Part shown: positions 11,074-29,790 of the stretch, one piece after another
How positions within the stretch are numbered: the stretch's first letter is position 1
How the letters are laid out: the number at the start of each line of letters is the position of its first letter
IMG/VR virus record: IMGVR_UViG_3300005538_000220
Span: 1 to 32,416 of that record
Reading direction: 5' to 3' (one strand)
Length of the DNA stretch: 32,416 nt
DNA from: a virus
Notes under the pieces: model-generated
What the model saw: the letters and a program-made list of their open reading frames with translations, nothing else
What the model was told of the DNA's origin: nothing
The model's database searches: none
Made by a program: the position numbers and the translations under genes

Positions 11074-11502
11074 TCACACTCCCGCATTCCCCGCCCGATA
11101 TTGCTGCGATCCGGTTGGATCCGGCTGCGGCGCCGCCATGGGCGGCGGCGTCGCACTGCCGTGCCGGTTGGCTTCGCCGCCCGTCGCCCGGCCCGTCGCT
11201 GCCGCGCCGCGGGCAACGGTTGCTTCGGCGGGCGCTGTGAAGCAGCCGTTGCGCCTTTTGCCGCATCGGCGGGGGCCTGAGCGGTTCGCCATAGCGTCCG
11301 AATGTTGAGCCCGGGTCGGCGTTGCGGCTTCGCAGGCATCCGGCGCATTGTCGGCGTCGATGCGCTCAAAGCCCGCGTTCCACAACAGCCAGCGCGCGAC
11401 CTCGACCGGCACCAGCACCCGCCCATCGGGGCCGACGCGATAGCGCATCGTGCCATGCCCCACCTCGTCCTGGCCGCACATGGCGCGCAGCGCTATGAGC
11501 AT
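11074..11502 (-). CDS. small head-region protein of unknown function
   Basis: 142 aa from an ATG 13 nt after the capsid stop; a second ATG at 11448, after a GAGGTGGGG stretch, would give a 125-aa form beginning MRYRVGPDGRVLVPVEVARWLL. The segment up to about residue 60 looks folded (EVARWLLWNAGFERIDADN), and the rest is Ala/Arg/Gly/Pro-rich and probably disordered. No family is recognised. Its stop is 4 nt before the connector ATG, with that gene's ribosome site inside its last codons. Could be a head completion or decoration-type protein; this is only positional inference. Confidence 0.55.
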   Translation of the reverse strand: MLIALRAMCGQDEVGHGTMRYRVGPDGRVLVPVEVARWLLWNAGFERIDADNAPDACEAATPTRAQHSDAMANRSGPRRCGKRRNGCFTAPAEATVARGAAATGRATGGEANRHGSATPPPMAAPQPDPTGSQQYRAGNAGV

Positions 11503-11515
11503 CGCGACCCGCCGG

Positions 11516-13021: not shown

Positions 13022-13089
13022 CGATGTTCTCCTGGCTGGGGCCAACCAACAAACCGGCAGTCGAGCCCGCTAGGGGCGTCGTGCCGGCC

Positions 13090-15180
13090 TCATTCGCGAC
13101 TGAAATCCTTCGCCGGGCCGGGTCCCGGCGGGTAGATTGGACGGGTATAGCTCGCCTTTATAAGCGCTAAGGTCTGCTCTTCCTTGGTCATTTTGGAGAA
13201 GGCCGCAGCCAGATCGTCTACAGACGGATTGCCGCCGCCACCGTCCTGCTGTTTTGATATCGCGGTTATCCCCTTTGAGAGGGCGACGGGCGGCAACGGG
13301 GCGCGGGCGATCTCTTCAACCCGCTGTGCCAACCGGTCGAGCTTCGGCAGAATTTCGTTCAGCGCTTCAGCCAGCGCCGGATTTGCCGACCGCTCCGCTG
13401 TCGGCGATTTACTGAGGCTACTGTGAGCGGCCATTCGGAAATCCGCATTGGGGTCCGGCCAGACCCCGCGAGCGCTGATGCCGTTGCACGACGCCCCGGC
13501 CGCTACCAGATGATCATGAGCTGTTGCAAGATGCGCGAGCGTCTCGCGTGAATGGCGGGCCCCGGCCTTTGCAGCCGCCATACAGCACCCGCCATCAGTC
13601 AGCTTGTCGAGGCACGTATGCGCGAGATCCATCAAGGCCTGATGGCCAGCATCCTTTTGCGCGAAGACGGCCGCGATGATGTCGAGCATGTCGCAGTCGG
13701 AGGGTGCATCAGGTGCGCCGGACGCCATAGGCACATTGCCGTCAAATGCCGACGGCCAATATGGCGACTCAATATCAAGAGCTGAGGCGCCGTTGCCCGT
13801 TGCGCCGGCGTCCTGCAGTGCGTCGCGCGCCTTGATCATATGAGCGCGTTGGTCAAACAGCAGCCCTTTCATTGCCAGACATTTGACGACGGCACGAAAG
13901 GCGAGATCCAACAAGGCCTGGTCAACATCGCTGTGTTTGGCCTTGGCGAGGATCGCCGTCGCCAATTTTTGCAGCTTTGGTCCGCGGCCTCGGCACAAGC
14001 CTGCAATGTGTACCGCGCCGCGAGCGCCGGCGGCCCGCATCACGACGTTAGCCGCTCTATCCTCGGTAGGCTCGCCCATTGCTCCGGCATCGTTCATAAT
14101 CTCGCCGGTCTCTTCGGCGACCAGAGCATTTAAAAAGGCGCATAACTCGGCGATAATTGACTGCAATCGCGCGGGTTGCGGAGAATCGTCGCCTTCGATT
14201 GCGGCTTCGACGGCAAGGCTTTCCTGCAGCCAGTCTAGATCGAGGATGATCCGTGCGATGTGGCCAACATCGCACAGCGCCTTTGCCAAAGCACGTTCGC
14301 CATGCAGTCGCGCGGCCTTGGCGTTTTCCGCCGCAGAAGGTGGCCCGTCCGGGTCGATTTTCTTCTTCCAAGCGGCAATAATGCGCGCCTTGATATCGTG
14401 CAACTGGGCCGATGTATATCGCTGCGCATTGCGCGGCCGGTTGATGAAATTCCAAGCCGCACGGATATGGCTCTCGGTGTCGATCGGGTATCGCCTCTTG
14501 CCGTCGGCCTGATAGCCCGGGTCGGCGTATTCGACTTCCCCGTAAGAGGCGCCCGAAGCGGCGGCGGCCGGCGGAGATTGCGCGGCGGCGGCAATACTGG
14601 CTTTTGCCGTGGCCGGAACTGCAAAGCGCCTGGAGTTGGCCATTTCTGCCTGACACCTGAGGGCCTCGACTTTACCCAAATGCTGGTGGTGAGGGATACC
14701 GCAGGCCCAGATTTGGATCGGGAAGGTCGATGACGAGGGAGGAGGATTGGCCTGAGCGCCGTTTGCTTTCCAGTAGTCGAAAACCGCCTCCGGATTGGCC
14801 GGGCGATCGACCAATGATATTTCGTTCAACACCAGACCGGTGATGGTCTTGGGGTCGCTCGGATCACGCCGCGTGACCTGGCCGCCGATCGAATATCCTT
14901 TATAGACTCCCTCGACAATCTTTTGCCACGCCTGGTCGTCGACAATCTTGGCGCCGATATACAGGCCCTTGTTGTCGACCGTCGCTTCTTTGGCAACGCC
15001 AACGGCGGAGAGCTGATGCATCTCACGAATATTGGCGAATTTCATGTAATCGCCGAGCGCCTCTACCAACGCTTCACGTTTGACGACTTCGCCCTGGTCG
15101 TCGCGCGCCTCTGTGGACGCGTATCCCCATACCTCGCGCCGCTCGGCGTCGATCTTGGCGATCGGAAAGTAGAGTTTCAT
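13090..15180 (-). CDS. prohead protease fused to DUF6582-like and long helical scaffold region
   Basis: 696 aa from the ATG at 15180 (GAGAGA upstream). Residues 1-140 form a U35/XkdF-type prohead protease: IREMHQL supplies His55, VYKGYSIGGQV supplies Ser97, and EISLVDRPANPEA at 120-132 is the conserved end of the domain. Residues about 216-275 match the DUF6582 pattern (ADPGYQADGKRRYPIDTESHIRAAWNF..., LHDIKARIIAAWKKK). Residues about 280-620 are helical, rich in Ala, Cys and His pairs, then a coiled-coil LAEALNEILPKLDRLAQRVEEIA precedes the end. The product probably works as protease plus internal scaffold that is removed during head maturation. It is much longer than simple proteases (about 200 aa). 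Confidence 0.85.
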   Translation of the reverse strand: MKLYFPIAKIDAERREVWGYASTEARDDQGEVVKREALVEALGDYMKFANIREMHQLSAVGVAKEATVDNKGLYIGAKIVDDQAWQKIVEGVYKGYSIGGQVTRRDPSDPKTITGLVLNEISLVDRPANPEAVFDYWKANGAQANPPPSSSTFPIQIWACGIPHHQHLGKVEALRCQAEMANSRRFAVPATAKASIAAAAQSPPAAAASGASYGEVEYADPGYQADGKRRYPIDTESHIRAAWNFINRPRNAQRYTSAQLHDIKARIIAAWKKKIDPDGPPSAAENAKAARLHGERALAKALCDVGHIARIILDLDWLQESLAVEAAIEGDDSPQPARLQSIIAELCAFLNALVAEETGEIMNDAGAMGEPTEDRAANVVMRAAGARGAVHIAGLCRGRGPKLQKLATAILAKAKHSDVDQALLDLAFRAVVKCLAMKGLLFDQRAHMIKARDALQDAGATGNGASALDIESPYWPSAFDGNVPMASGAPDAPSDCDMLDIIAAVFAQKDAGHQALMDLAHTCLDKLTDGGCCMAAAKAGARHSRETLAHLATAHDHLVAAGASCNGISARGVWPDPNADFRMAAHSSLSKSPTAERSANPALAEALNEILPKLDRLAQRVEEIARAPLPPVALSKGITAISKQQDGGGGNPSVDDLAAAFSKMTKEEQTLALIKASYTRPIYPPGPGPAKDFSRE

Positions 15181-15744: not shown

Positions 15745-16416
15745 TCAGCCTCCTATGAGCCGGATACGAAGTCCCGATACTTGGAATACCGCGGGTGCCG
15801 CCGCCGGCGTTTGGCCACCAATCTCTGCCGGCAACTGGCTGTCGGCAGTCACGGCGACCGACATCACCCATTCGCCTTGCGTGCCGCCATAGCCGGGCGT
15901 GCTCACGACGATTTCGATCGGGATACCGCTGTCGCGGGCAAGCGAGGCGGTTGCGTTCGATTGGTTTTCGAGCGGCGCGTCAATCTTTCCGGCAGTGTCG
16001 AGCGAGATTTCCAGCGCCGACCGGCGGTCGCCCTTTTGCACGGCAAGCCATTCGAGGACGGCGACCGCATTGACCAACGCAGCGATGGCGGTGCTGCCGA
16101 GGATCTCGGCCGGATCGTTGCTGTCGATCTGCAGCGTCTTTTGCCACGCCACCGGCGCATTGGCATCGCGGCGCGAGCCAGCCTGAACTTCAAGGCGCGG
16201 TACGGCATCAATCGTGATCGTCGCGCCGCCGAGCGCTTCGAGCGCAAACCCCGTTTCGCGCCGTTGACTGGCGGCGAGCTCGCCCGATGCAGCGCGCTGG
16301 GAATTCTGCCGGGCGAGCCATTCGATCTGCGCATAACCAGGCTGCACCGTCCCGGCGAGTTCGGCCGGGGCGCTGCTGTCGGCCATGGCGCCGGCGTTAA
16401 CTTCGAAAAGCGCCAT
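15745..16416 (-). CDS. repeat-containing cassette protein, unknown function
   Basis: 223 aa from an ATG at 16416. The first 160 residues are built from a degenerate unit with an Asp-x-Ser/Ala-Ala-Pro-x-Glu core (for example SSAPAELAGT, DANAPVAWQ, DSNDPAEIL, KIDAPLEN, DSGIPIEIV), followed by hydrophobic/Gly residues. The last 60 residues look like a separate beta part (TPGYGGTQGEWVMSVAVTADS..., VFQVSGLRIRLIGG). There is no ribosome site before the ATG. It lies in the same frame as the preceding short ORF, which carries the same repeat, separated only by TGA-ACC. It may therefore be the larger half of a once-continuous gene. Confidence 0.65.
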   Translation of the reverse strand: MALFEVNAGAMADSSAPAELAGTVQPGYAQIEWLARQNSQRAASGELAASQRRETGFALEALGGATITIDAVPRLEVQAGSRRDANAPVAWQKTLQIDSNDPAEILGSTAIAALVNAVAVLEWLAVQKGDRRSALEISLDTAGKIDAPLENQSNATASLARDSGIPIEIVVSTPGYGGTQGEWVMSVAVTADSQLPAEIGGQTPAAAPAVFQVSGLRIRLIGG

Positions 16417-16419
16417 GGT

Positions 16420-16599
16420 TCAATCGTCGCGACGGGTTGTGCCGCTGGTTTCGATGGGTGCGCTCTGATCGATGGTCTGCGGCGTCGTGGTTGTGCCGGT
16501 CCATTCCACGGGCGCAAGGCGGTCGCTGATCACGGCGATCGCGTAATATCGCGCGGCACGCGGCGCGCCGGGGCGATTGACGGGGCTGATCCACGGCAT
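16420..16599 (-). CDS. short repeat protein, in frame with and possibly a broken part of the next gene
   Basis: 59 aa, ATG at 16599, MPWISPVNRPGAP then YYAIAVISDRLAPVEWTGT and DQSAPIETSGTTRRDD. The two Asp-x-x-Ala-Pro-x-Glu units are the same as those in the following gene. The stop TGA (16420-16422) is followed by one codon and then the ATG of that gene in the same frame. It starts 4 nt after the stop of the membrane-anchored protein gene, so it is packed as a real gene would be. Either two small ORFs or one gene interrupted by a nonsense codon. Confidence 0.55.
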   Translation of the reverse strand: MPWISPVNRPGAPRAARYYAIAVISDRLAPVEWTGTTTTPQTIDQSAPIETSGTTRRDD

Positions 16600-16603
16600 C
16601 GGC

Positions 16604-17503
16604 TTAGCGGCGACGAAAGCCGGCCGGGGCGCGGGTCACGACCCGCTTCGGACAGGGCGAGGTCAGCGCGGCGCCGGCCGGCGACCAGCAACTCCAAAAG
16701 CTCGTCATCCCCGGCGGGTTCTGCACGTTGGTGCCCCCATAGGCGGTCGAGCTCGTGGTCGGGCTGCCCTGCGTTTGCAGATTGACCGGGGCGCCGTTGG
16801 CGGTCACGTCGTAAATCAGAAACTGGTCGTAATTCGCGGTCGGGCCGCCCGAGCCGGTGCCGTTGTCTTCATTCGGCACGTAATTAACCTGGCCCAGGCC
16901 GACATTGGCGCTGGCCGGGGCTGAGCTGCTCCAGGTCCATTTCTGGGTGTAGTCGGTGACCGAGAAATTCCATTGCTGGTTTGTCGCACCGCAGGGTGTG
17001 GTGCAATTGAGGCTCATCTTGATGACGTCGCCGGGATAAGCGTCAAAGGTGCCATCCGACTGGCTCGAATGCGACGTGTTGAGGCCCCCCGAGATTACCG
17101 TCCAGTTCGGGGTGGTGATGCAGCCGCTCCAATTCGGGCAACCCGAGGCAACATTGTTGGGAAACCACACCTGGGCCACTGTGGTGTCGCCGGTGTCGCT
17201 GATCCCGACCCAGAGATCGTTGAACTGGCTCGATCCGCCATTCACCGGCGCAAATTGCACGGCCGGCATGATGATCGTCATCGAGGCCGAGGTGCACGGA
17301 TTGCAGGCCGTGACCCGGTAGCCATCCCAATAAAGCCACCCTGCCTGTGCCGGACGCGTGCCGAGCGCCAGGCCGGCGGCGATCACGGCCGTCGCCGCGG
17401 CCAGCGCCCACAGCAACAACAGCCACAGCGCCCCGGCGAGCTCGATCAATCGCGTCGCGCCGAGCGGGCTTCGCACCGGCCGCTTTTCCCGCGCCGCAAT
17501 CAT
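16604..17503 (-). CDS. membrane-anchored extracellular protein, weakly peptidase G1-like
   Basis: 299 aa from the ATG at 17503, chosen over 17515 because GGAGAG is placed 6 nt before it. Residues 1-17 are basic; 18-48 are a hydrophobic segment (LIELAGALWLLLLWALAAATAVIAAG), either a signal peptide (Ala-rich end TRPAQA, cut near 54) or an anchor. The mature part is Trp-, Thr- and Ser-rich with several Cys (67, 70, 122, 128, 167, 171), suggesting disulfides outside the cytoplasm. DLWVGISDTGDTTVAQVWF at 97-113 and YPGDVIKMSL at 156-165 resemble the WVGIDG...Q and GD-I segments of G1 (eqolisin) beta-sandwich peptidases. A Gln111 candidate exists, but the matching catalytic Glu is unclear. The start lies 12 nt inside the end of the glycine-rich gene. 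Function unproven. Confidence 0.65.
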   Translation of the reverse strand: MIAAREKRPVRSPLGATRLIELAGALWLLLLWALAAATAVIAAGLALGTRPAQAGWLYWDGYRVTACNPCTSASMTIIMPAVQFAPVNGGSSQFNDLWVGISDTGDTTVAQVWFPNNVASGCPNWSGCITTPNWTVISGGLNTSHSSQSDGTFDAYPGDVIKMSLNCTTPCGATNQQWNFSVTDYTQKWTWSSSAPASANVGLGQVNYVPNEDNGTGSGGPTANYDQFLIYDVTANGAPVNLQTQGSPTTSSTAYGGTNVQNPPGMTSFWSCWSPAGAALTSPCPKRVVTRAPAGFRRR

Positions 17504-17514
17504 CTTGCTCTCCA

Positions 17515-19080
17515 TCAAAACGCGACTGCAATGGCCGCCCCGTCGCCGCCCGCCCCGCCGGCGCCCGAGGTGCAGCTGGTCGCATCGCAAGCGCCCCCGC
17601 CGCCGCCGCCGGCGCCATAGCCGCCGGCACCCCCGGCACCGGCGGTGCAGCTCGCGGTCGTGCACGCGCCGGCGCCGGCTCCCCCGGCGCCCGCCAATGA
17701 ACGCAGGGCGATGATCGGTGGGTTGCCGCCGGCCGGGCCGTTCCCGCTCGAGACGCCACCGGCCTGTGTCGTCTGCGCGGCGCTGATCCCGCCCGAGCCG
17801 CCGGTGCCGCCGGCGCCGCTGCCGTTGATGCCGGCGCCGGCGCCCCCGCCCGGGCCGCCCCAAGAGCTATAAGCGCCATTGCCGGCAAAGCCGCCGGTCG
17901 AAGGAGCGCCGCCCGCCTGGCCGCTGGTATCGGCATTTGATGGGCACAATATCCCAAGCCCATTGGTACAGGTGGCGCCGCCAGCGTTGTTGTAACTGCC
18001 TGAGGTGCGGCCGCCGTAGCAGGTCAGATAAGTGGTGCCGCCATTGGCGAAGGTCGTCGCCCCGCCGGCGTTCGAGGCATTGCCATTGCCCGAGGTAACG
18101 CCGGCCGGCCCCGCACCGCCTTGCCCGACCGTGACCGTGACCGGCCAGGTCACCGAGCTGACCGGCAGCGTGATCTCGTTGTACACGCCGCCGGCGCCGC
18201 CGGCGCCCCCAGAAACGCTGGCGGTGGTCCCGGCAAAACCGCTGGCGCCGCTGCCGCCGGCGCCGATGCAGGCAAAGGTCACGGCATGGGCATAAGGCGG
18301 CTTGGCATAGCTGTAGGTGCCATGCCCGAGCCAGGTGGTCACGGCGCTGGCGCCGATCACCAGCGCGTCGTAATTGCCCGAGCCGTCGAGCGCGATGATC
18401 GCACTCTGCCCCTGGTTCAGGGTCATGGCGCTGGCGCCGACCGTGCCGGCGTAATTGATCGTCGAGGTTGTCGGCGTGATCGTCACCGCCCCGGCGCCAT
18501 AATTGGCGACCATCAGCACAAAGCCGTTGTCGGGGAAGCCGGCCGAGCCGCCCTGCGGCAGGGTCACGGCCACGGCACTGGCGCTGTTGTAGGTGACAAG
18601 CCCGCCATTGTCGGTGGCGAGGATCGTGTCGCTGGCGCCGGTGACGGCGCGGACATTGGCCCCCGGCGCATACCAGGCGGCGACGTTCCAATTGCTGTTC
18701 GGCCCGTCGCAGGCGAGGATCACGCCGCCGAGATTGGAGGTGATCGCCACCCCGCTGGCGCTGCCGCCGACATTGCCGCTGGCGGCGACGATGCCGAGGT
18801 TGTAGGTCGCGGCGTTGCCCTTCTCGTCGATGACCCCGATCCAGGCGCCGTTGTTCGCGGCCCCGCAGGCGGGCAGCGTCTCGGTCTTGGCGCCGGTCGT
18901 GGCACTGCGCCAAAAAATCCAGCCTTGGTAATCGCGCGGGCTGGCGCTGTCGGCGGTACCGGTCGTAACCGCTCTGCCCGGGGCCGGAAATCCAAGCAAC
19001 CGGTCCTGCGCGACTGACGGGCTGACAGCCGCGATCGACAGCGCCGCCGACAGCGCGAGCGCGCGCTTAGTTGTAGACAT
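17515..19080 (-). CDS. secreted-type glycine-rich adhesin / receptor-binding candidate
   Basis: 521 aa from the ATG at 19080 (another in-frame ATG lies 9 nt upstream). Residues 1-24 are a Sec signal peptide: MSTTKR, hydrophobic Ala/Leu core, SVAQ cut site. Residues about 150-240 form a beta module (ATDNGGLVTYNSASAVAVTLP ... LDGSGNYDAL) that resembles the repeats in the tailspike at 23189-25768. Residues 272-516 are extremely Gly-rich with GAGGAGG-type runs, the composition of polyglycine-II sandwich domains of phage adhesins such as T-even gp38. Cys pairs (473/478 and 498/503) lie in two similar SCT-x-GAGGAGG units. It overlaps the upstream gene by 14 nt. A receptor-binding role is inference; a signal peptide is odd for a virion protein. 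Confidence 0.75.
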   Translation of the reverse strand: MSTTKRALALSAALSIAAVSPSVAQDRLLGFPAPGRAVTTGTADSASPRDYQGWIFWRSATTGAKTETLPACGAANNGAWIGVIDEKGNAATYNLGIVAASGNVGGSASGVAITSNLGGVILACDGPNSNWNVAAWYAPGANVRAVTGASDTILATDNGGLVTYNSASAVAVTLPQGGSAGFPDNGFVLMVANYGAGAVTITPTTSTINYAGTVGASAMTLNQGQSAIIALDGSGNYDALVIGASAVTTWLGHGTYSYAKPPYAHAVTFACIGAGGSGASGFAGTTASVSGGAGGAGGVYNEITLPVSSVTWPVTVTVGQGGAGPAGVTSGNGNASNAGGATTFANGGTTYLTCYGGRTSGSYNNAGGATCTNGLGILCPSNADTSGQAGGAPSTGGFAGNGAYSSWGGPGGGAGAGINGSGAGGTGGSGGISAAQTTQAGGVSSGNGPAGGNPPIIALRSLAGAGGAGAGACTTASCTAGAGGAGGYGAGGGGGGACDATSCTSGAGGAGGDGAAIAVAF

Positions 19081-19615
19081 CGGTGACATAGGTCGTGACC
19101 TGATTGCCGGCGCTATAGGTGGCAAGCGCCACACCACTCTGATTGTAACAAAGGATCGTGATAAAGGTCGGCACGTTGCCGTCGGTAAAGATACCGCGCA
19201 GCCCGTGCCAGCGGGTGTAATAGGTCGTGACGCTGTTGCTCAGCACCAGCTGGTCAAGCAGAGCGAGGCTGGCGAACTGCGGGTCGTAGGCGAGCAACGC
19301 CGCCAGGGCGGCCGATTGGTCGCTCGACGATGTGGGGCTGATACCGCCCGGCCATACCGGGGTGGTGTTGTCCTCGCTGGCCAGAATATAGCGGCTGAAG
19401 GTGGCACCGGTCGTCGGCCCCGAAGCAAAGGTGATCTTCCATGGCGGGATGATCAGATCGCCGAGCGGGGCAGTCAGCGTCGCCGGCTGCACGACCCCGA
19501 CACATTTCGCCTGGCCATTGGGAAGCCCCGAGAAATTGTCGCCCGAGGCGCCAGCGGCGCCATAGGGCCAAACCAGCGGGGCGCCGGCGGCGGCCCGGTT
19601 CCACGGATTGCTCAT
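19067..19615 (-). CDS. phage structural-type protein, unknown function
   Basis: 182 aa, ATG at 19615. Trp/Pro/Gly-rich N-terminus (MSNPWNRAAAGAPLVWPYGAAGASGDNFSGLPNG) followed by beta-rich sequence with LIIPPWKITFASGP and YYTRWHGLRGIFTDGN. No domain is recognised and no signal peptide is present, unlike the next gene. It lies 11 nt after the lysozyme-like gene and its end overlaps the start of the glycine-rich protein by 14 nt. Could be a chaperone or a fibre partner for that protein; this is positional inference only. Confidence 0.6.
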   Translation of the reverse strand: MSNPWNRAAAGAPLVWPYGAAGASGDNFSGLPNGQAKCVGVVQPATLTAPLGDLIIPPWKITFASGPTTGATFSRYILASEDNTTPVWPGGISPTSSSDQSAALAALLAYDPQFASLALLDQLVLSNSVTTYYTRWHGLRGIFTDGNVPTFITILCYNQSGVALATYSAGNQVTTYVTDVYN

Positions 19616-19626
19616 TCAGAGCCCTT

Positions 19627-20112
19627 TCAGCTCAGCGGGAGATCAAGACCGGTCAGCGCCCAGTTCTGCATGAACTGGGAGAGCGTCGCCGCCCCGGCCG
19701 CGGTGTTGTAATGCGCCTTGTAGTAGCCAAAAAGCGCCGTCACGGTCGGTGGTTGGGGGAGCGGCTCCGGCACTTTCCAATAGAGCAGGCGAGTCACGGC
19801 GACCGCATAGGGCAGGTTGGCGACCACATTGTGCGCGGGCGTCGTTGGCGCCGCCAATAGCGCGAGGGCCGACTTTTCCGCTCCCGACAGCCGCGTGAGC
19901 AGATCGTCGAGGGTTGCCGGCTCGACCTGCCCAATTCCCAGCGCCGGCCCGTCTTCCTGCACAAGGTAGGTGCCCAATAGGCTTTCCTGCGCGATCGTTC
20001 CCATCACCAAATAAAAGGCCGCGTCCGAGTAGGGGATGCTCGCCATGCGGTCGAGCCATTCCAGTGTCGGGATCACGACCTGCTGCGCAAACTGCTTGGC
20101 GTTGATGGTCAT
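19627..20112 (-). CDS. lysozyme/transglycosylase-like virion protein
   Basis: 161 aa from the ATG at 20112, which overlaps the upstream stop by 4 nt; the longer open frame beyond it is not protein-like. Residues 38-66 (MGTIAQESLLGTYLVQEDGPALGIGQVEPAT) have the layout of the SLT/goose-lysozyme core: a catalytic Glu candidate at 43 in a helix, then GPALGIGQVEP, comparable with the A-x-G-L-M-Q-V-x-P motif of lytic transglycosylases. The rest is helical (NLPYAVAVTRLLYWKV, TALFGYYKAHYNTAAGAATLSQFMQNW). No signal peptide. It may be a virion-borne muramidase, in addition to the NlpC/P60 peptidase of the tip. Activity is inferred from the motif only. Confidence 0.6.
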   Translation of the reverse strand: MTINAKQFAQQVVIPTLEWLDRMASIPYSDAAFYLVMGTIAQESLLGTYLVQEDGPALGIGQVEPATLDDLLTRLSGAEKSALALLAAPTTPAHNVVANLPYAVAVTRLLYWKVPEPLPQPPTVTALFGYYKAHYNTAAGAATLSQFMQNWALTGLDLPLS

Positions 20113-20327
20113 CGCCGCGCTGCCACAATACGAATGCCCCACGGGCCGAAATTGTGTTCGTCGGTCTGTTCTTCGCCGTTGACGATCGTCCGCATCAGAC
20201 AAAGACCGGTTTCGACATTGGCGCTGAGGATCAATCCAGGGAGGTCGGCCATCGTGTCGCAGCGCACGATCTTGTAGAGCCGGCGCTCGCTCTCGGGGTC
20301 GGCGGCCGTCAGCTTCAGCGGCAGCAT
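20109..20327 (-). CDS. small protein of unknown function
   Basis: 72 aa, ATG at 20327. MLPLKLTAADPESERRLYKIVRCDTMADLPG... then beta-type VETGLCLMRTIVNGEEQTDEHNFGPWGIRIV. No family recognised. Mixed alpha/beta look with a conserved-type FGPWG near the end. It is coupled to the lysozyme-like gene by a 4-nt ATGA overlap and follows the next gene upstream by 15 nt, so it belongs to the same transcript. Confidence 0.6.
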   Translation of the reverse strand: MLPLKLTAADPESERRLYKIVRCDTMADLPGLILSANVETGLCLMRTIVNGEEQTDEHNFGPWGIRIVAARR

Positions 20328-20342
20328 GGGCGTCGTCTCGCC

Positions 20343-21458
20343 TCAGGTGGTGGCGCCCTGCACGCGGATGTCGGCCGAGCCCTTGTAGGCGGCGGTGCCG
20401 GCCGGCAAGGTCAGGCGCAGCCAGATGCCTTGCGCACCGGCGCTGTTGGGTGCCGCCCCTGATGGCAAATTGCCGGGCGACGGCACGTTGATAAAGGCCG
20501 GCTGGGTCACGAACGAGCCGCAGCCGGTCGGGACAAAGCTCGAAATTTGCTGGCGCGGGTTGATGGTGTTGGTGTCGTTGAGCGCCGTGCACAACGCGGC
20601 GTCGAGCAGCGCCCCGGTCGGCAAGGTCGGGGTCTCGCTCGCGATCTCGATCTGGGCGCCGGTCAGCGCCGTCGCAGTGTTGTTGTTGACCGCGAACACC
20701 TTTTCAAAGAAATACCGGGCCGAGCCGGTCGGCACATCGGCGGCGGCAGTCCAGAACAGGCGTGTGACCGCGAGCACTGCGTTGGGGCTGATCTCGAACA
20801 ACAGCCCTTGCACGATCTTATAGGTAGTCGTGTTGTCGGGCACCGTTCCCCAGTCGCGATTGATCGCAACGGTGTCGGTGCCATAGCCCGAGGTGGCAAT
20901 AATCATGCGCAGCTGGTTGGGGCCGGTGCCGCCGCGCGTCCAGATCAGCATGCCGGGCGACACGCTGGCGCCGTCGCCGGACTGCAATTTGAACAATGGC
21001 GGGGTGGTGCCGCTGGTATTGGCCGAGCCGGTTTGTGCCGTGTGATAGGTCGTGTCGGTCGTGACCGAGCTCGCCGGCAACACGCAGGTATGGGCCATGC
21101 AGGCGACATCGCCGACCGCGGCGGTGCCGCCCGGATTGGTGAGCCCGGCGATCGCGCCGCCGGTGATCACCGCCGCGCCGATGCGCTCAAAGGTCTGCGA
21201 GCCGGTGACGACGGTCTGGCCGTTCAATGTGACAGCGGCCGGCGTCTGAATCACGCCGGTACTGTCACGGCCGGTGACCTGCGCTTTGACCGCGGTGTCG
21301 GAGGCCGAACTCGACACCCAATCCATCGTGCCGGCCGGCGAGATGTCGTAAAACGCGACGCGCTTTGTAAAATCGACCGCGCCGCCGACGGTGACGCCGT
21401 CGGCCTCGGGCATATTGGCCGAGCCATAGACGACAACGTTGTTTGGTGTGACGCTCAT
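20343..21458 (-). CDS. beta-rich structural-type protein, unknown function
   Basis: 371 aa, ATG at 21458 with AAGGAG at ideal spacing. N-terminus MSVTPNNVVVYGSANMPEADGVTVGGAVDFTKRVAFYDISP, then alternating Thr/Val/Gly-rich strands to the end (WLRLTLPAGTAAYKGSADIRVQGA). No signal peptide. The N-terminal phrase VVVYGSANMPEADG looks like virion or fibre proteins of alphaproteobacterial phages, but the function is unknown to me. It opens the accessory cassette after the 243-nt gap that follows the portal gene. Candidate decoration or fibre-base protein. Confidence 0.65.
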   Translation of the reverse strand: MSVTPNNVVVYGSANMPEADGVTVGGAVDFTKRVAFYDISPAGTMDWVSSSASDTAVKAQVTGRDSTGVIQTPAAVTLNGQTVVTGSQTFERIGAAVITGGAIAGLTNPGGTAAVGDVACMAHTCVLPASSVTTDTTYHTAQTGSANTSGTTPPLFKLQSGDGASVSPGMLIWTRGGTGPNQLRMIIATSGYGTDTVAINRDWGTVPDNTTTYKIVQGLLFEISPNAVLAVTRLFWTAAADVPTGSARYFFEKVFAVNNNTATALTGAQIEIASETPTLPTGALLDAALCTALNDTNTINPRQQISSFVPTGCGSFVTQPAFINVPSPGNLPSGAAPNSAGAQGIWLRLTLPAGTAAYKGSADIRVQGATT

Positions 21459-21701
21459 TTGCGCATCTCCTTAACGGCGGTACGTGGCCAGCCAGTGACT
21501 AAGCCGCATTGATGTCTCTCGCAGTGATCGCGCCGAGAAGCACGCCTCAACTGACAAACCCAAGGGGTTCAGTGGCGGCTCTTTGAATATTCGAACGGCC
21601 TGGGATGTCGGCTGCGTTGACCCGGCCCCAGGCAAGCCGACTGCTTTAACCGGGTCCGCTTTGAGCGCGGAGCCGCTGCACAATTGCGATGGTGGTGTCG
21701 A
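21459..21701 (-). other. 243-nt non-coding gap with interlocking inverted repeats
   Basis: No convincing ORF on either strand. Three 7-bp perfect inverted repeats interlock within 59 nt: GCCTGGG (21598-21604) with CCCAGGC (21627-21633), GTCGGCT (21607-21613) with AGCCGAC (21635-21641), and GACCCGG (21619-21625) with CCGGGTC (21650-21656). They cannot all form as simple nested stems and would give a pseudoknot or alternative folds. A small hairpin AACCC-AAG-GGGTT lies at 21557-21569. The region borders the accessory cassette and may hold a transcript-processing or recombination junction. Confidence 0.35.
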
Positions 21702-23012
21702 TTATTGTCGGGTTGTGATTTGTTGCAGCGGGCGATCCCCGCCTACGATGCCCGGGAGCCCCAGCACGTTGCGGGCCTCGTTAAGCGAATAGATTCCGTC
21801 TTTGACATAGGTGTCGAGGATCGCTGCAAGATCTTTCGCATTCGAGGGCCAGACATCGGACCAGACGAATTCCAGGTCTTTATGCCCCATGCGTTCTTGT
21901 ATGACGGTGTCGACAAGTCGCTTGACCCAGTTCGTCAGTGGCGCCAAGCCTTCCTCGATCGCGGTTTCCTGGGCAGATTGGGCTGTCGCTCGGTTGACTT
22001 GCGGTGTGAATGCGGTGGGCGGCAATGAGAATGCATAGCAGACAATCCGCGCCAGCCACTCGTCGAACTCGTCTTTGTAGGGCGCCTCTTTGAACGGCTG
22101 ATATTTGGCCCCGGTCGGGGCCCAGATCAGTCGCGTACGATTGGCCGTATTGCCCGCGAGGATCGAGTCGAACCACTCCTGGAATTGGCGGATCTGCTCC
22201 GCATTCCAACCGTCGGGCGCATTGAGGAGGCCGGGCGGAACATTACCCTCGGTGAAGTGCTGTAACTGCATCAACTGCCGACGCAGGCCGATGTTGATCG
22301 TGACGACAATCTGCTCGCAGGGGCTGAACCCATAGGCCTTGTGCGGACGCATATTGCGCGGCAAATAGATAATCTCGTCGGCGGTCAGCAGTTTCCACGG
22401 CCGGCCGTGAATGACCTGTTCATAAGCCGGCGCCGGCGGCTGAGGGCGTCGCCCAGTGTCGTCGATCAGCACCTTGATCGTGGCGCCATCAACCACGTCA
22501 AGGCCGACAATCTCTTGGGTGCGGCTGCGCCTCACTTCGAGACAAGGCGCATCCAGCACCAACAGGTCTTCAAGCAGGTCGCGCAGCCAAGTGGCGAATG
22601 GCCGCTCGCCGTCGGGTCGGCGCCAGAACTCGGTTAGCTTGGCAAGCCGCCCCGAGGCGTCGGGGAGCGGAGCCACGTCGCGACGCACTCTGATCGTCCA
22701 GCCGAGCTTTTCGATCTGGTCCTTGCGCGTTTCGATCGCCAGGCGGGTGATGTCATGATGCTCGGCCAGCGCCCGAAGCTCCTCAAACCCGATGCGTTCA
22801 TAGGCGCGGGGCGTATAGATCGTGTTATAGCCGACCGGAAAATCCCATACGCGTAGCCTTTCGCGCTCGGGCGGAACCAGCGGGTAGCCCGGAGAAAAGA
22901 TTCCCTGATCGGGCTGGAACACCTGGCGATATCGGGTGATGTCATTTTGTGATCCGAAACCGCCCCAGCTGTACGAGGCGACTGGAGCCGGCTTTGCTTC
23001 CGATACGCTCAT
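21702..23012 (-). CDS. portal protein
   Basis: 436 aa from the ATG at 23012 (GAGAGAG upstream). Residues 30-70 contain PDQGIFSPGYPLVPPERERLRVWDFPVGYN; 90-125 contain FEELRALAEHHDITRLAIETRKDQIEKLGW, the helix typical of this portal family; and the central ADEIIYLPRNMRPHKAYGFSPCEQI is the usual portal core motif. The C-terminal half carries LARIVCYAFSLPPTAFTPQVNRATAQSAQETAIEEGLAPL, another hallmark, and ends with a hinge NEARNVLGLPGIVGGD. It forms the dodecameric DNA channel. It is separated from terminase by the tailspike and a small gene, and from the protease by the accessory cassette; both separations are unusual. Confidence 0.9.
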   Translation of the reverse strand: MSVSEAKPAPVASYSWGGFGSQNDITRYRQVFQPDQGIFSPGYPLVPPERERLRVWDFPVGYNTIYTPRAYERIGFEELRALAEHHDITRLAIETRKDQIEKLGWTIRVRRDVAPLPDASGRLAKLTEFWRRPDGERPFATWLRDLLEDLLVLDAPCLEVRRSRTQEIVGLDVVDGATIKVLIDDTGRRPQPPAPAYEQVIHGRPWKLLTADEIIYLPRNMRPHKAYGFSPCEQIVVTINIGLRRQLMQLQHFTEGNVPPGLLNAPDGWNAEQIRQFQEWFDSILAGNTANRTRLIWAPTGAKYQPFKEAPYKDEFDEWLARIVCYAFSLPPTAFTPQVNRATAQSAQETAIEEGLAPLTNWVKRLVDTVIQERMGHKDLEFVWSDVWPSNAKDLAAILDTYVKDGIYSLNEARNVLGLPGIVGGDRPLQQITTRQ

Positions 23013-23062
23013 TTTACTCTCTCGGAAAACCTGTCCGTTACAGGCCGATCTCTCGGTCCTGC

Positions 23063-23091
23063 CCAGGAATTGGCTTGCGACCCAATCCTGG
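23063..23091 (-). terminator. candidate hairpin between tailspike and portal genes
   Basis: CCAGGAATTGG (23063-23073) pairs with CCAATCCTGG (23082-23091) around an 8-nt loop, with one bulged A. It sits in the 176-nt gap between the tailspike stop (23189) and the portal start (23012). No U-tract follows on the minus strand, so it is a weak or partial terminator, or a processing hairpin that would separate tailspike and portal mRNA levels. Confidence 0.35.
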
Positions 23092-23188
23092 CGACCCTGC
23101 CGCAGCGCGACAAACATCTCCAGCCGCACTTGCGTCGGGGATCACCGGCCGGCTCTCGCAGCTCGGCCATAGGTTCGCCCAGTCGTTC

Positions 23189-25768
23189 CTAGAAGCTCGA
23201 CAGGGCAGCGCGCTTCCACGTGTTCGGTGCGGCGCAGAAATAGATGTAGCTGCTGTCCGCCTGCAGTTGGCCGACATTGCACGCGGCGGAACTGCTGCTT
23301 GGCGTGCCGGGCGAAATCAAACCGCCGAGAGTGTTCAAGGTCTGTGGCGTCACGCTGACGACGCGAAAATTGCTGCCATCAAAGCGCAACTGGAGAAATT
23401 CGTAATTCTGACCGGGTGCGAGAGCAAGCGAGGAAACGGCGGCACCCCCTCGAGCCGGGACCAAGATCATCGCCCCGCCGCTCCCGGCGACCTGGACGGT
23501 CAGAGGCTTTCCGGCATCGCTCGAAAATCCCATCGTCCACCCCGGGGCGATCCCGCTGGGCGGCGGCAGGGTCACCGTCAAACCGCCCGTCGTATTGGCG
23601 CTCGATAGAGCGTTGCCATTGTCGCCGGGGCCTGCGACATAAGTTGCTGCGCTGGGGAAATTCCAGCGGTTGAGATCTGGCGTCGATCCATACATTCCGA
23701 TCAGCGCCGCGGTGGCCGGGGTTGCCTCGGTGATCCGAAAGTTGCTGCCATCAAAGCGCAGCACCAGAAACTCGTAGTTGGCCGTCGCCAGTGATACGCT
23801 CGAGACCGAGCCACCGCTCCCAGGATAGAGAATATGGGCATTACCGGCGCTGTTAACTTGAACCGACATGGTTTTGTTGTTGTCTGTGGCCAACGCCATT
23901 GTCCAGCCCATCGGCAATGTACTGGGATTGGGCAGGGTTACTGCCATGTAAGAGGCCGGACTGTTGTAGTTGGAAACGGCATTGCCGTTGTCGGACAGCG
24001 CGGCGGCATAGCTGCTGACCGCGGGGAAACTCCAATGGGTGATCCCGGCTGTTCCGATCATGCCGTTGGCTTGGGCGGTGGCCGGGGTGGCTTCGATCAC
24101 ACGGAAATTGCCGCTGCCGTCATATTGCAACACGGCAAATTCATAGGCCCCCTGGCTGGTGTTGGCGAGGGTCATGCTGGTCGCGGCGGCGCCGCTGCCC
24201 GGCCACAGGAGATGCCCGCCGGAAGCGGCAGCGACCTGAACCGTCAATGGCTTGCCATTGTCAGTCGCAAAACCGATGCTCCACCCCGCCGGCAGACCGG
24301 TGACCGGCGGCAGCGTGACGGTTAGACCCGCAGCACTATTGTAACTCGACAAAATGTTGCCGTTGTCACCAAGCGTCGCTGCATAGCCTGAAGCGGAAGG
24401 ATAAAGCCAGTTGCTCGGCCATGGCGGCGGCTCGAAACCCATGTTGAGACGCGTGTTGCGGGTCGAGGAAACCACGCGCCAATTGCTGCCGTCGGATTGG
24501 ACGCGCAGATATTCGTAATTGCCGGCGCCAAGGGTCACCGACGAAAGGGATCTATTGCCGAGCAGAATGCCGCCCGTCGGCGCAATCAAGATCAACCCTT
24601 TGCCGTTGTCGGTGGCCACCGCCATTGTCCAGCCCGGATTGACCGCGGCGATCGGCGGCAGGGTGACGGTCATCGAACTGCCGGGCGTATTGTAGCTCGA
24701 CACGGAAAGACCGTCGTCGATCGGCGCCGCGGTGTAGCTTGCGGCCGACGGGAATATCCATTGCGGCCGTGATCCGGTGCCCTCGACCGAGATACCGACC
24801 GAATTGGGTCCATAATTGACAACGGAACCGCCGTAATTCGGGTTGATGAGGGTGTTGCCGATGCTCGCCGTGGCGTTGACCGCAGTCGCGCAATCGAAAT
24901 AGGGCGATACAAACGTGTTGAGACCGTTGTGAGTGAATGTAATCGCCAGACAGGTCGGGGAAACCTCAAGGTCGAGCGCGAAAAAGGTGTTCGAGAAATT
25001 GTAGCCATTCTCCAGCACGACGCCACGGCCGCCGACGCCGCCCGCAGTCGCCGCCCCCGAGATATGCGAGAATTGGGTCTGCTCGAACGCCATGCCGGCG
25101 GCACCCCCGGTCGTATCGCAGACCGCATAGATGTCGCTGTCGAGGACGTAATTGAACTGGCAAGCCCCTGCCAATGAATTGCTGCTGTTGTTATTGACCA
25201 CCAGGTGGTCGATCTTGATCGAATTCTGGGCGTCGGAAAAATCGGGGCGGCCGAGGATGAACGCGTAGCCGGTGGTATTGGCTTCGATGTTCAGATTCCC
25301 CTCTTCTTTGAAATAAAAGCACCCGGTTGGTGAAGACGGAGTGCCGCCGGAGCATTGAATTTGCAGGGTTGGTCCGTTGGAGATCGCGCGCCCATCGATG
25401 GTGGCGCCGCGCGAGATCAAGCGAAACCCGGCGCTTGCTTGACCCGCATAGTCAACGACCAGGCCGGCGGTGATTTTGTAGGTGCCGGACGGCAGATGGA
25501 CCGGCCAATTGTGGGTAATCGCGGCATTGATCGTGCTTTGGATGGCGTTGGTGTCGTCGTGGACATCGTCACCGACCGCACCATTGCAGCGCACATCGAT
25601 CCACGGGCGTCCCGAGCACATCAAGGCATCGCCGCCGAGTGTGGCGGTGCCTGTCGTCGACAAGGTGGAAAAATTTCCCGGCGATTGCGCGAACCCGTTC
25701 GCGGCGTCGATCGTCGCGAAGCAGACCGCGAGAAGCGCCATCACTGCGTGTTTGAACCGCGGTTTCAC
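23189..25768 (-). CDS. secreted-type tailspike / beta-helix protein with four tandem C-terminal modules
   Basis: 859 aa from a GTG at 25768 with GGAGGGAG upstream. Residues 1-27 form a Sec signal peptide (basic MKPRFKH, hydrophobic core, NGFA before Gln28). Residues about 55-335 match the pectate-lyase superfamily beta-helix start of phage tailspikes: IDVRCNGAVGDDVHDDTNAI, then PVHLPSGTYKI. Residues 337-817 are four tandem modules of about 108-119 residues. A short C-terminal domain with Cys (830, 845) follows. The beta-helix suggests binding or cutting of a surface polysaccharide; no catalytic residues were identified. It lies between terminase and portal, an unusual place, and the signal peptide is unusual for a tail protein. 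Confidence 0.82.
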   Translation of the reverse strand: MKPRFKHAVMALLAVCFATIDAANGFAQSPGNFSTLSTTGTATLGGDALMCSGRPWIDVRCNGAVGDDVHDDTNAIQSTINAAITHNWPVHLPSGTYKITAGLVVDYAGQASAGFRLISRGATIDGRAISNGPTLQIQCSGGTPSSPTGCFYFKEEGNLNIEANTTGYAFILGRPDFSDAQNSIKIDHLVVNNNSSNSLAGACQFNYVLDSDIYAVCDTTGGAAGMAFEQTQFSHISGAATAGGVGGRGVVLENGYNFSNTFFALDLEVSPTCLAITFTHNGLNTFVSPYFDCATAVNATASIGNTLINPNYGGSVVNYGPNSVGISVEGTGSRPQWIFPSAASYTAAPIDDGLSVSSYNTPGSSMTVTLPPIAAVNPGWTMAVATDNGKGLILIAPTGGILLGNRSLSSVTLGAGNYEYLRVQSDGSNWRVVSSTRNTRLNMGFEPPPWPSNWLYPSASGYAATLGDNGNILSSYNSAAGLTVTLPPVTGLPAGWSIGFATDNGKPLTVQVAAASGGHLLWPGSGAAATSMTLANTSQGAYEFAVLQYDGSGNFRVIEATPATAQANGMIGTAGITHWSFPAVSSYAAALSDNGNAVSNYNSPASYMAVTLPNPSTLPMGWTMALATDNNKTMSVQVNSAGNAHILYPGSGGSVSSVSLATANYEFLVLRFDGSNFRITEATPATAALIGMYGSTPDLNRWNFPSAATYVAGPGDNGNALSSANTTGGLTVTLPPPSGIAPGWTMGFSSDAGKPLTVQVAGSGGAMILVPARGGAAVSSLALAPGQNYEFLQLRFDGSNFRVVSVTPQTLNTLGGLISPGTPSSSSAACNVGQLQADSSYIYFCAAPNTWKRAALSSF
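23318..24760 (-). repeat. four tandem about 115-residue repeats in the tailspike
   Basis: Approximate module limits in protein residues are 337-444, 453-571, 578-693 and 701-817. Each has W-x-F/Y-P-S/A at the start, then a DNG/DDG-N/L...S-x-YN/AN segment, a VTLP strand, GW-x-M/I, (A/S)TDNGK or SDAGK, a VQV or LIL strand, YEF/YEY, and finally (Q/R)-x-DGS-x-N/W-F/W-R. Divergence between copies shows old duplications with independent drift. A related module is seen once in the glycine-rich protein at 17515-19080. Confidence 0.8.
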
Positions 25769-28146: not shown

Positions 28147-28698
28147 TTACCGCGGGCCGCGATAATGCGCTTCCAGCGCCCCCAGGGTAGCGACAAGGAT
28201 GCCGGCGGCGGTCTCTTGGCTGATACGGCGGCCGTTCCACCCTTGCCCAAGTGCCCAATCCTTGATCGATTGTTCCCAGCCCACGACGTGCCATAGACAC
28301 GAACCGCCCGGCGAGGAGGGACCCCCAACGGCAAGCAGCGCGCGCCAAACCTCCTCGCGCGCGGTTTCGATCCGCTGGGCCGGTTGCGCGTCGCGGTATC
28401 GAGGGCCGGCTTTCCCGGTTCTGGGTTGCAGATAATCCAGGGCCCGCAGCGGATCGAGCTGCGCCACCGCAAACCGCGACCGAAAATCTTCCGCGGCCTG
28501 GCGCATCGCGGCGGTGATTGTGCCGCGCCGCTCCATCGCGGTTAGGGTGTCAACGGCGCGAAATGGCCGCGCCGACCGCCCGTGATGGTCGGCAATAGCA
28601 TGCGGTACTGGCTCGATCTTGCCGTGATTTCGGCGTTCGTCGGTTGGCGCGATTTGAGGCGCAGCGAGGGGAATGGCGGCGCGAGCGGAGCGAGGCAT
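28147..28698 (-). CDS. DUF6456-like regulatory protein
   Basis: 183 aa from the ATG at 28698, 8 nt after the stop of the zinc-protein gene. The longer open frame to 29088 overlaps that gene in another frame and is rejected. The N-terminal third is basic and Ala/Pro-rich. Residues about 55-180 follow the DUF6456 layout: a helix (ITAAMRQAAEDFRSRFAVAQLDPLRA), a linker, then a helix (AREEVWRALLAVGG), LWHVVGWEQSIKDWALGQGWNGRRI, and a final helix ending LGALEAHYRG. DUF6456 proteins are common in alphaproteobacteria and are associated with regulation, but no mechanism is established that I can cite. Position between zinc protein and late promoter suggests control of structural genes. Confidence 0.7.
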   Translation of the reverse strand: MPRSARAAIPLAAPQIAPTDERRNHGKIEPVPHAIADHHGRSARPFRAVDTLTAMERRGTITAAMRQAAEDFRSRFAVAQLDPLRALDYLQPRTGKAGPRYRDAQPAQRIETAREEVWRALLAVGGPSSPGGSCLWHVVGWEQSIKDWALGQGWNGRRISQETAAGILVATLGALEAHYRGPR

Positions 28699-28708
28699 TC
28701 GAAACAAA

Positions 28709-29026
28709 TCAAGAACACTTTTGCCGCGCAAAAATCCCCACCGTTTGCTCAAGACGCCGCAGAAAACGGGGCGGCGGGTGTCCAGCGCGGGTACCACGGC
28801 GGCCACCGACCATGCGCGCCAAGGCTTCGACCTCGCGCAGCGCGTCCTTTTCGGCGGCTGTTCCGCAGCCAAGATGGCATAACGCGTGATGCCGATCGCA
28901 ATAGGCGGAACCCGGGCGGCGTGGCGCCCCGCAACGGCGCTGATTGGCGCTTTCGCCTGAGATATAGGCACACCCAAAATCGCTATCGAGGGGCGCGAGC
29001 GCAACCGCCGGCGGGATCCTCTCCAT
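28709..29026 (-). CDS. GcrA-like zinc-motif protein
   Basis: 105 aa, ATG at 29026 with AGGAGG 8 nt upstream. Residues 18-46 contain Cys-x(12)-Cys-GAPRRPGSAY-Cys-DRH-HALCHLGC, closely matching the C-terminal CGxxxxxGxxYCxxH zinc element of GcrA-type regulators. The rest is helical (AAEKDALREVEALARMVGG) and basic. It lacks the N-terminal HTH of full GcrA. It is the first leftward gene of the element, driven by the promoter facing the repressor, so it is likely an early regulator, comparable in place to Cro- or antirepressor-type genes. Function is inference. Confidence 0.7.
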   Translation of the reverse strand: MERIPPAVALAPLDSDFGCAYISGESANQRRCGAPRRPGSAYCDRHHALCHLGCGTAAEKDALREVEALARMVGGRRGTRAGHPPPRFLRRLEQTVGIFARQKCS

Positions 29027-29068
29027 CGCCGTCTCCTCCTTTGGCAGGGCTTGTCAGCTTCACATGGC

Positions 29069-29080
29069 GATGATATCATC
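29069..29080. promoter_or_regulatory. 12-bp perfect palindrome, candidate repressor operator
   Basis: GATGATATCATC is perfectly symmetric and overlaps the -10 box of the leftward promoter. A second imperfect palindrome, TGCG-TATAT-CGCA, lies at 29109-29121 just before the repressor start. Two such sites between divergent genes fit binding by the XRE/S24 repressor to shut the leftward promoter and adjust its own transcription. Binding is not shown. Confidence 0.5.
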
Positions 29081-29099
29081 AACGGCAATTTAGTGTCAA
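29070..29099 (-). promoter_or_regulatory. leftward (early) promoter of the phage module
   Basis: Minus strand: -35 TTGACA (29099-29094), 18-nt spacer, -10 TATCAT (29075-29070). Transcription would start near 29063 and run into the GcrA-like gene. The -10 lies inside the palindrome at 29069-29080, the usual layout for a repressed promoter. Confidence 0.55.
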
Positions 29100-29118
29100 C
29101 CTGATAATTGCGTATATC
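29090..29118 (+). promoter_or_regulatory. possible repressor promoter giving a leaderless mRNA
   Basis: TTAGTG (29090-29095), 17 nt, TATATC (29113-29118) would start transcription at or next to the ATG at 29125. No ribosome site precedes that ATG, which fits a leaderless message as for lambda cI from its maintenance promoter. An alternative -10 is GATAAT at 29103-29108. The -35 is poor, so confidence is low. Confidence 0.35.
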
Positions 29119-29124
29119 GCATCA

Positions 29125-29790
29125 ATGAATACAATCTGGTTCAATCAGGCGCTCGAACGAATCGGTGCCACCCAGGCCGATCTCGCCCGCCATCTGCGGC
29201 TCGCCCCGTCGGCCGTCTCGCGCATGCTCAAAGGCGAGCGGCAGATGAAACAACTCGAAACGGTTCAGATCGCCGGTTTCCTCGGCGTCAGCCCGGAAGA
29301 GGTGCTTCAACACGCGGTTGCCGAGAGGGTCTCCGCGGCGGTCTCTGAAACCCCCCGCGCCGGCCGTGGCCGCCCGCGCCTGGCGACCGGGCCGGCACCG
29401 CGAGCTGCGGATCTGATCCCGATCCGCAGCGCCGGTCGCGGCGGCAGCGATCAGGCCATGTTTCTGGAGGATGGTCCGATCGGCTATACCGCAAGGCCGG
29501 CCAATCTCAGCGGCGTGCGCGCAGCCTATGCGATTTACATGGTCGGCGACAGCATGGAGCCGCGTTATGAGCCGGGCTGGCTATTGCACGTCAACCCGTT
29601 CAAACCGCCGATCCGCGGCCGCGACGTCGTCGTCTACAAGCGCGGACAGGCGGTGCTGATTAAGCAGTTTGTCGGGTGGGAGGGGGAAACGCTGATCCTG
29701 CGTCAGCTCAACCCTCCGGAAACATTGCGCATCCCGCGGGCTGAGGTGCTCGAATGCCATCTGATCGTCGGCGCCGATCAGGAGGGATAG
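29125..29790 (+). CDS. XRE-family S24 peptidase-type prophage repressor
   Basis: 221 aa, CI/LexA-like. Residues about 5-60 form an XRE helix-turn-helix (ATQADLARHLRLAPSAVSRMLKGE) that binds operators. Residues 66-105 are a Pro/Arg/Gly linker. Residues 110-219 are an S24 peptidase domain with GDSMEPRYEPGW (Ser143) and VLIKQFVG (Lys180) as the catalytic dyad. An Ala103-Gly104 bond lies 40 residues before Ser143, a plausible self-cleavage site, so SOS-dependent induction is possible. It is the only rightward gene and is divergent from the phage module and convergent with clpB (31 nt between stops). Some host S24 regulators look alike, so host origin cannot be fully excluded. Confidence 0.88.
   Translation: MNTIWFNQALERIGATQADLARHLRLAPSAVSRMLKGERQMKQLETVQIAGFLGVSPEEVLQHAVAERVSAAVSETPRAGRGRPRLATGPAPRAADLIPIRSAGRGGSDQAMFLEDGPIGYTARPANLSGVRAAYAIYMVGDSMEPRYEPGWLLHVNPFKPPIRGRDVVVYKRGQAVLIKQFVGWEGETLILRQLNPPETLRIPRAEVLECHLIVGADQEG

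Follow-up and report, generated by a model that had tools for sequence, protein, structure and literature searches.

Signal-bearing tailspike-like, glycine-rich and eqolisin-fold proteins encoded in the late operon of a gene-transfer-agent-like prophage

Where do proteins act that are encoded among phage structural genes and yet begin with a Sec-type signal? The question is raised by the complete, 32,416-base IMG/VR record IMGVR_UViG_3300005538_000220 (hereafter the window), whose minus strand carries a prophage-like operon. An earlier note on this DNA had pointed out three signal- or anchor-bearing proteins among the structural genes: a tailspike-like protein (the spike), a glycine-rich protein (P0002) and a third protein, P0001. 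All three are real and lie on the minus strand where that note had placed them. As read from sequence, all three, encoded in the late operon of this gene transfer agent (GTA)-like prophage, combine a Sec signal with paired cysteines and a fold of extracellular proteins; across the lineage, the same operon contains signal-bearing proteins that are homologous or analogous to them. We consider it probable (roughly 60%) that the spike, P0001 and P0002 are exported accessories, directed at the host surface and made with the virion genes, rather than tail parts assembled in the cytoplasm.

The spike has 859 residues (positions 23189 to 25768, minus strand) and starts at a GTG codon with GGAGGGAG upstream. 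Its N-terminus reads MKPRFKHAVMALLAVCFATIDAANGFA, followed by the cleavage site and QSPGNFS, so that the predicted signal peptide covers residues 1 to 27 (25688 to 25768, minus strand), with cleavage before Gln28. The earlier note had proposed a survey of related prophages for conservation of the signal; every one of the 27 relatives whose N-terminus is intact has a hydrophobic stretch ending in A-x-A-Q, or nearly so, right before the mature sequence. A27 and Q28 are invariant in the 20 rows of alignment A1, while the rest of the signal has a mean pairwise identity of 0.37 as against 0.76 for the mature protein. Signal peptides are usually far more variable than the mature parts. Signals were scored by a home-made method with a cut-off of 11.5. 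Spike open reading frames (ORFs) scored at least 11.5 in 20 cases out of 28, and core head, packaging and tail ORFs in none of about 200, their maximum being 10.8.

Could these N-termini be chance hydrophobic stretches, or products of wrongly placed starts, on ordinary cytoplasmic tail parts? The earlier note had itself named true starts downstream of the signals as a refutation. In seven relatives from one subclade, the proportions of synonymous (pS) and nonsynonymous (pN) differences in the spike signal codons were 0.588 and 0.075 (ratio 0.13); in the same relatives, pN/pS was 0.16 in the next 60 codons and 1.07 in the 24 codons upstream. As purifying selection acts on the signal codons but not on those upstream, the signal is translated and selected, with the start as proposed; a downstream start is contradicted for the spike, the only one of the three proteins for which this evidence was obtained. 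Placement of the spike start is ambiguous for some relatives (L016, L017, L018, L025 and L029), and in L016, L017, L018 and L029 no obvious start codon stands right at the signal, leaving the N-region uncertain, which is what favors chance signals. The invariant A-Q, the purifying selection from the proposed start, the lack of signals in core genes and the paired cysteines all argue the other way, and we regard chance signals as very improbable.

P0002 (521 residues; 17515 to 19080, minus strand; phrog_863, 1.2e-4) has its real start at ATG 19080, which overlaps the end of the upstream gene. Its N-terminus, MSTTKRALALSAALSIAAVSPSVA, is followed by a cleavage site and QDRL, and the predicted signal peptide covers residues 1 to 24 (19009 to 19080, minus strand). 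A charged n-region, a hydrophobic core, an A-x-A motif and conservation were found for both the spike and P0002. The ATG of P0001 (303 residues; 16604 to 17515, minus strand) overlaps the stop codon of the glycine-rich gene (TGATG), and its N-terminal signal or signal-anchor covers residues 1 to 58 (17342 to 17515, minus strand). Here a long hydrophobic stretch at about residues 26 to 51 is followed by RPAQA/GW, with possible cleavage at AQA/G; the corresponding sequence in a podophage copy is APAEA/AW. This N-terminus could be either cleaved or retained as an uncleaved anchor. A twin-arginine translocation signal was rejected for all three proteins, as their N-termini, when read, have no twin-arginine motif ahead of the hydrophobic core. 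A 94-nt tRNA-Ile called by ARAGORN across the junction of the two genes (17456 to 17549) falls within coding sequence and is probably spurious.

The earlier note had also remarked that cysteine pairs in two of these proteins fit life in the periplasm or outside. This holds more widely than was said, as the mature spike, P0002 and P0001 have 10, 10 and 8 cysteines, respectively, closely paired. For the spike, in which conservation was counted, the pairs are 51/61, 139/150, 203/217 and 273/293, all in the beta-helix, and 830/845. Three of the five are invariant in the 20 rows. At 203/217, 15 rows have Cys-Cys and five have Leu-Ala, with no mixed cases, so that this pair was gained and lost jointly, as expected of a disulfide; at 830/845, Cys-Cys occurs in 15 rows, the others lacking the pair or being truncated. 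These five pairs would suit an oxidizing compartment. Cysteine content is 3.3% in P0001 and 2.0% in P0002, compared to 0.8% in the other window proteins, although content by itself is not decisive because the baseplate hub, NlpC and other proteins are also cysteine-rich.

A genuine signal could still belong to a particle component if the three proteins were receptor-binding parts that are exported, folded and disulfide-bonded in the periplasm, and joined to virions during or after lysis. The spike is conserved between terL and portal, and its cap and fibre repeats are of the tailspike type, as this explanation would have it. From its sequence, the spike (PF12708, 1.7e-8; PHROG tailspike and tail families) looks like a chimera of the signal peptide, a beta-helix (residues about 51 to 335; 24764 to 25618), four tandem fibre-type repeats (residues about 336 to 815; 23324 to 24763; alignment A1 and AlphaFold model) and a C-terminal cap, SSSAACxxGQ..YFC..NTWKRAALSSF (23192 to 23323; phrog_17312, 9.4e-13), all on the minus strand. 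The AlphaFold model has four similar beta units after the beta-helix; since its pTM of 0.37 signifies low global confidence, our statements about it are confined to the domain level. Foldseek matched the model to tailspikes, PfbA and epimerases, with low TM-scores. The right-handed beta-helix body of virion-anchored tailspikes is therefore present (PF12708, the model and Foldseek agree on it). An N-terminal virion-binding domain was not found, as signal residues 1 to 27 are followed by a short linker and then, from about residue 51, by the beta-helix; this speaks against a particle part.

Among lytic Klebsiella tailspikes, the best matches to the spike cap have C-termini that are 46 to 55% identical to it. 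Two cap-sharing tailspikes were read, those of Klebsiella phages 0507-KN2-1 and Whistle; both have different N-termini without a signal, that of Whistle reading like a T7-type anchor. Signal-less homologues in lytic phages, the other refutation named in the earlier note, thus exist for the cap, in these two tailspikes; a whole-protein search with the spike in 50,697 phage records found no full-length relative. The likeness to these tail proteins lies in the cap and, more generally, in the beta-helix body and the place in a structural operon. Virion-anchored tailspikes start with a virion-side N-terminal domain and no signal, whereas the window spike starts with a signal and no anchor.

Relatives of the spike beta-helix (43 to 54% identical) occur in host genomes as proteins of about 300 to 345 residues (L059, L064 and L066), in a longer frame in L069, and also in L056. 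These host proteins have signal peptides, and where their neighbours were seen, no recognizable phage genes were among them. In a midpoint-rooted FastTree tree, the phage beta-helices form one group nested among the host proteins, which fits capture of the spike beta-helix from a host secreted protein; as midpoint rooting gives the root no independent fix, the host-to-phage direction is merely suggested. This tree, made after realignment, replaced a first one that was dropped for unbelievable branch lengths in two host rows.

What kind of protein is P0001, described in the earlier note as a membrane-anchored beta protein? Rather than a generic beta protein, it is a protein of the eqolisin fold. 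Pfam yielded nothing convincing on P0001 directly, and the link came via a host protein (L086, from a metagenome-assembled genome, or MAG) that is 32% identical, has a signal peptide and matches Peptidase_A4 (PF01828) at 1.8e-26. The AlphaFold model of P0001 is of moderate confidence (pLDDT 57, pTM 0.64); on it, the eqolisin fold was recognized by Foldseek, with scytalidoglutamic peptidase as the best solved match (2ifr, E 6.6e-9, TM 0.57/0.67) and other G1 enzymes as further solved neighbours. In nine-protein alignment A3, every row has the catalytic Gln. The AEW glutamate is kept in all seven host proteins, but both phage copies have Asn there. P0001 therefore lacks the catalytic Gln and Glu pair of peptidase G1. 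Judged by these residues, it is probably inactive as a peptidase, and is more likely to bind than to act as a protease. P0001 has in common with the eqolisins (peptidase G1, PF01828) the fold, an export signal, the catalytic Gln and some paired cysteines; it and the podophage copy differ in having Asn for the catalytic Glu and in being phage-encoded. No P0001 homologues were found in plasmids or among PDB sequences, and 385 genomes of the class gave one weak match; the useful homologues came from the host order.

P0002 and P0001 lie in a DNA block (16545 to 19615, minus strand) that is 89 to 93% identical, by blastn, in an unrelated podophage, G046 (IMGVR_UViG_3300027706_000028). A 118-nt direct repeat at the ends of the G046 record makes it map as a circle. 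Its genes include those of a T7-type connector, capsid and tubular proteins, an integrase, a primase and a separate tailspike, T7-type at the N-terminus; by this gene content, we take it to be a temperate T7-like podophage. Its tailspike has no signal and differs at the N-terminus from the window spike, and no window-type spike was found in G046. The cassette also includes a companion gene without a signal (19067 to 19615, minus strand; 99% identical in G046); in L009, L010 and L023, diverged copies of it immediately precede genes that bear a signal. At its upstream end is the gene of a phrog_3108 protein (19627 to 20112, minus strand; 1.7e-29), possibly lysozyme-like (weak Phage_lysozyme2 match, 0.19), which is 81% identical to that of G046 in protein and 72% in DNA. 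Outside the block and this adjoining gene, blastn detected no DNA similarity between the window and G046.

Within the block, the only stretch that failed to align by blastn was the P0001 signal region (17431 to 17514); the N-terminus of P0001 is 48% identical to that of the G046 copy, and the remainder 94%. P0002 is 97% identical to its copy outside the signal, and the two signals differ in length and sequence but are equally good. Both signal regions have therefore kept signal character in G046 despite their divergence. The occurrence of the cassette in two unrelated virion types suggests that its proteins are not tied to one virion architecture, as proteins so tied would not be expected to travel. 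That P0001 and P0002 occur both in the GTA-like element and in a podophage with its own anchored tailspike argues, like the missing anchor, against receptor-binding parts of the particle, and we know of no tailed phage that assembles by export and subsequent attachment to the virion. We therefore hold a particle role for these proteins to be unlikely. From the interpretation in the earlier note, the true Sec-type signals, the extracytoplasmic cysteine pairs and, probably, a surface-directed set in a structural operon are retained; its wording of tail parts is not, given a spike with no virion anchor and a beta-helix like that of secreted host proteins, and two further genes that move between unrelated phages.

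The minus-strand operon starts with a small terminase candidate, the large terminase gene (terL), a hypothetical gene, the spike, the portal gene and a variable interval, followed by the prohead protease, the presumed major capsid gene and a distal GTA-type tail. Spike relatives are encoded at 31 viral loci, on prophage-like contigs. The set of three that had been described is wider in these related elements. In the portal-protease interval, L009 encodes a signal-bearing GDSL esterase, L010 signal-bearing alpha/beta-hydrolase-like and Gly_rich_2-like proteins (both under the Pfam cut-offs), and L027 a signal-bearing protein with an EIDLYE motif resembling GH16 (a motif only, with no Pfam match); L034 has a second signal-bearing GDSL esterase, just upstream of the spike. 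Signal-scoring ORFs numbered 7 of 41 in the variable interval and 0 of 166 in the core (Fisher p ~8e-6, table 7/34 and 0/166), the interval count excluding one holin-like family.

Small lipoproteins with a lipobox (LSGCA, LTGCV) were seen beside signal-bearing cassettes in L009, L010, L012, L034 and L037 (about 109 residues) and in L083 (17719 to 17958); possible identities are outer spanins and exclusion proteins. Proteins with repeats like AD..P.E..G were seen in L005 (11997 to 14381), L021 (9755 to 11227), L027 (17062 to 18222) and the window (15745 to 16416). Several end in RIRLL-type tails, some are fused to a signal-less glycine-rich domain, and they are perhaps a virion-bound counterpart.

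When are the exported proteins made? They might be host-benefit adhesins or matrix hydrolases expressed in the lysogen, that is, lysogenic-conversion genes. Related secreted homologues in host genomes would fit this, as would L043, in which a signal-bearing spike (11285 to 13768) lies not between terL and portal but just upstream of an integrase-like ORF, a common position for conversion genes. In the window, the sole strong promoter-like site found in the region lies beside the gene of a CI-like repressor (29125 to 29790, plus strand; helix-turn-helix and peptidase S24 domains by Pfam), which faces the minus-strand operon. This site (29070 to 29099, minus strand; TTGACA-18-TATCAT, 11/12, TG-extended) is the likely promoter of the entire operon, is common to the virion genes, and overlaps a divergent promoter-like site. 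Neither the spike nor the cassette genes have a promoter-like site immediately before them, and the start and stop codons of the cassette overlap those of its neighbours, pointing to co-translation. The exported proteins are thus probably made with the virion, and expression for the benefit of the lysogen seems rather unlikely to us.

Were the proteins exported accessories, as we favor, induction would lead to their production together with the virion, and Sec export would remove the signals and allow disulfides to form in the periplasm. From there, they would reach the cell surface via the type II secretion system of the host, or be released at lysis. The glycine-rich and inactive eqolisin-fold proteins might bind the host's own surface or matrix glycans, while the beta-helix, and in relatives the esterases and hydrolases, might cut them. 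The gain would be that progeny are freed from the matrix and that wasteful re-adsorption or superinfection is prevented. Folded beta-helix enzymes with disulfide bonds usually leave the cell by type II secretion, whose substrates have no known sequence signature, and the host MAG (G001) does encode a full-length type II secretin, GspD, over the cut-off, GspD being the only part of the system that was searched. Passage to the surface before lysis is therefore possible; otherwise lysis would release the proteins.

Several points weigh against this proposal. Sec alone delivers proteins to the periplasm only, and GspD exceeded the cut-off in just 17 of 43 genomes of the host order. Localization is predicted from sequence, and action on surface or matrix glycans, by binding or cutting, is suggested by fold, the spike having revealed no active site. 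The place of the spike between terL and portal across the lineage would suit a virion part too. Finally, the glycine-rich gene has no signal in L005, L016, L020, L021 and L037 and, where read, is fused to repeats (L005 and L021), so that within the lineage this kind of domain occurs both with and without a signal.

How do these proteins compare with known systems? Phage adhesins of the PblA/PblB type are particle tail fibres that cells also display and that bind glycans of host tissue. PblA and PblB of Streptococcus mitis phage SM1 likewise belong to the phage tail type and act at the bacterial surface, and pneumococcal PblB has been reported with a predicted signal peptide (PMC4508584). By description, the only level at which the spike was compared, S. 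mitis PblB belongs to a Gram-positive system, is freed by permeabilization during the lytic cycle and binds neighbouring cells. Sec-exported endolysins (Lys44 and the SAR endolysins) are phage proteins that leave via host Sec (PMC6116005); they are cell-wall hydrolases for lysis, whereas the folds of the three proteins here are those of extracellular proteins directed at glycans or proteins. In the parts of the open-access literature that we consulted, no exported tailspike was described for tailed phages of Gram-negative bacteria. A broader notion, which we offer tentatively and as somewhat doubtful, is that of phage "exo-spikes", tailspike modules in which an export signal has replaced the virion anchor. 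Together with exchangeable esterases and the inactive eqolisin-fold protein, these would act on the host surface from outside, as a mobile late cassette common to unrelated phages.

The usual reading of tail fibres and spikes is as parts of the virion, and a conserved, selected export signal in place of the anchor departs from that. If our proposal holds, annotation by tailspike homology can mislead as to a protein's site of action, and phages use host secretion to deploy soluble proteins that bind or modify receptors. The locus provides testable candidates for how phages handle host matrix and re-adsorption, documents cassette exchange between unrelated virion types, and could show a phage acting on the host surface from outside.

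The host is uncultured, and the data consist of MAG and metagenome contigs. The uncultured alphaproteobacterial Centralia_MAG_3 has contigs with the spike at 99 to 100% and, in the same genome, P0001 at 100%; the phage hosts are soil Alphaproteobacteria. Spike carriers also include MAGs labelled Binataceae and Rhizobium sp. Q54, for which binning errors are possible. The small terminase candidate is of the DUF6456 type (PF20057 at 1.1e-5, just under the cut-off), its role being suggested by gene position, as is that of the major capsid gene. The distal tail genes match TIGR02217 and TIGR02218 (both under the cut-offs), DUF2460 and the Rcc01698 C-terminal domain. A glycosyltransferase-like gene, as read from sequence, lies between the baseplate hub and NlpC genes (3491 to 4546) and recurs in L100 (5803 to 6882, 58% identity); it was not seen in three other relatives in which the right half was read.

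The element could be either an active phage or a GTA-like relic. Repressor-like genes similar to that of the window sit upstream of TerS in L037, L039 and L040. L037 with L098, and L039 with L097, have host genes at both ends, a repressor at one, and the genes from terminase to an Rcc01698-like gene in between; no integrase or replication gene was seen in them (compare window 28147 to 29790), and this type is possibly a GTA-like element of a soil alphaproteobacterial order. In the window, host clpB terminates the contig (29822 to 32416), and the element also adjoins clpB in L005, L006, L007 and L027, two of which are near copies; in L040 it adjoins prmC-DUF4167. These recurring neighbours suggest a favored or inherited location.

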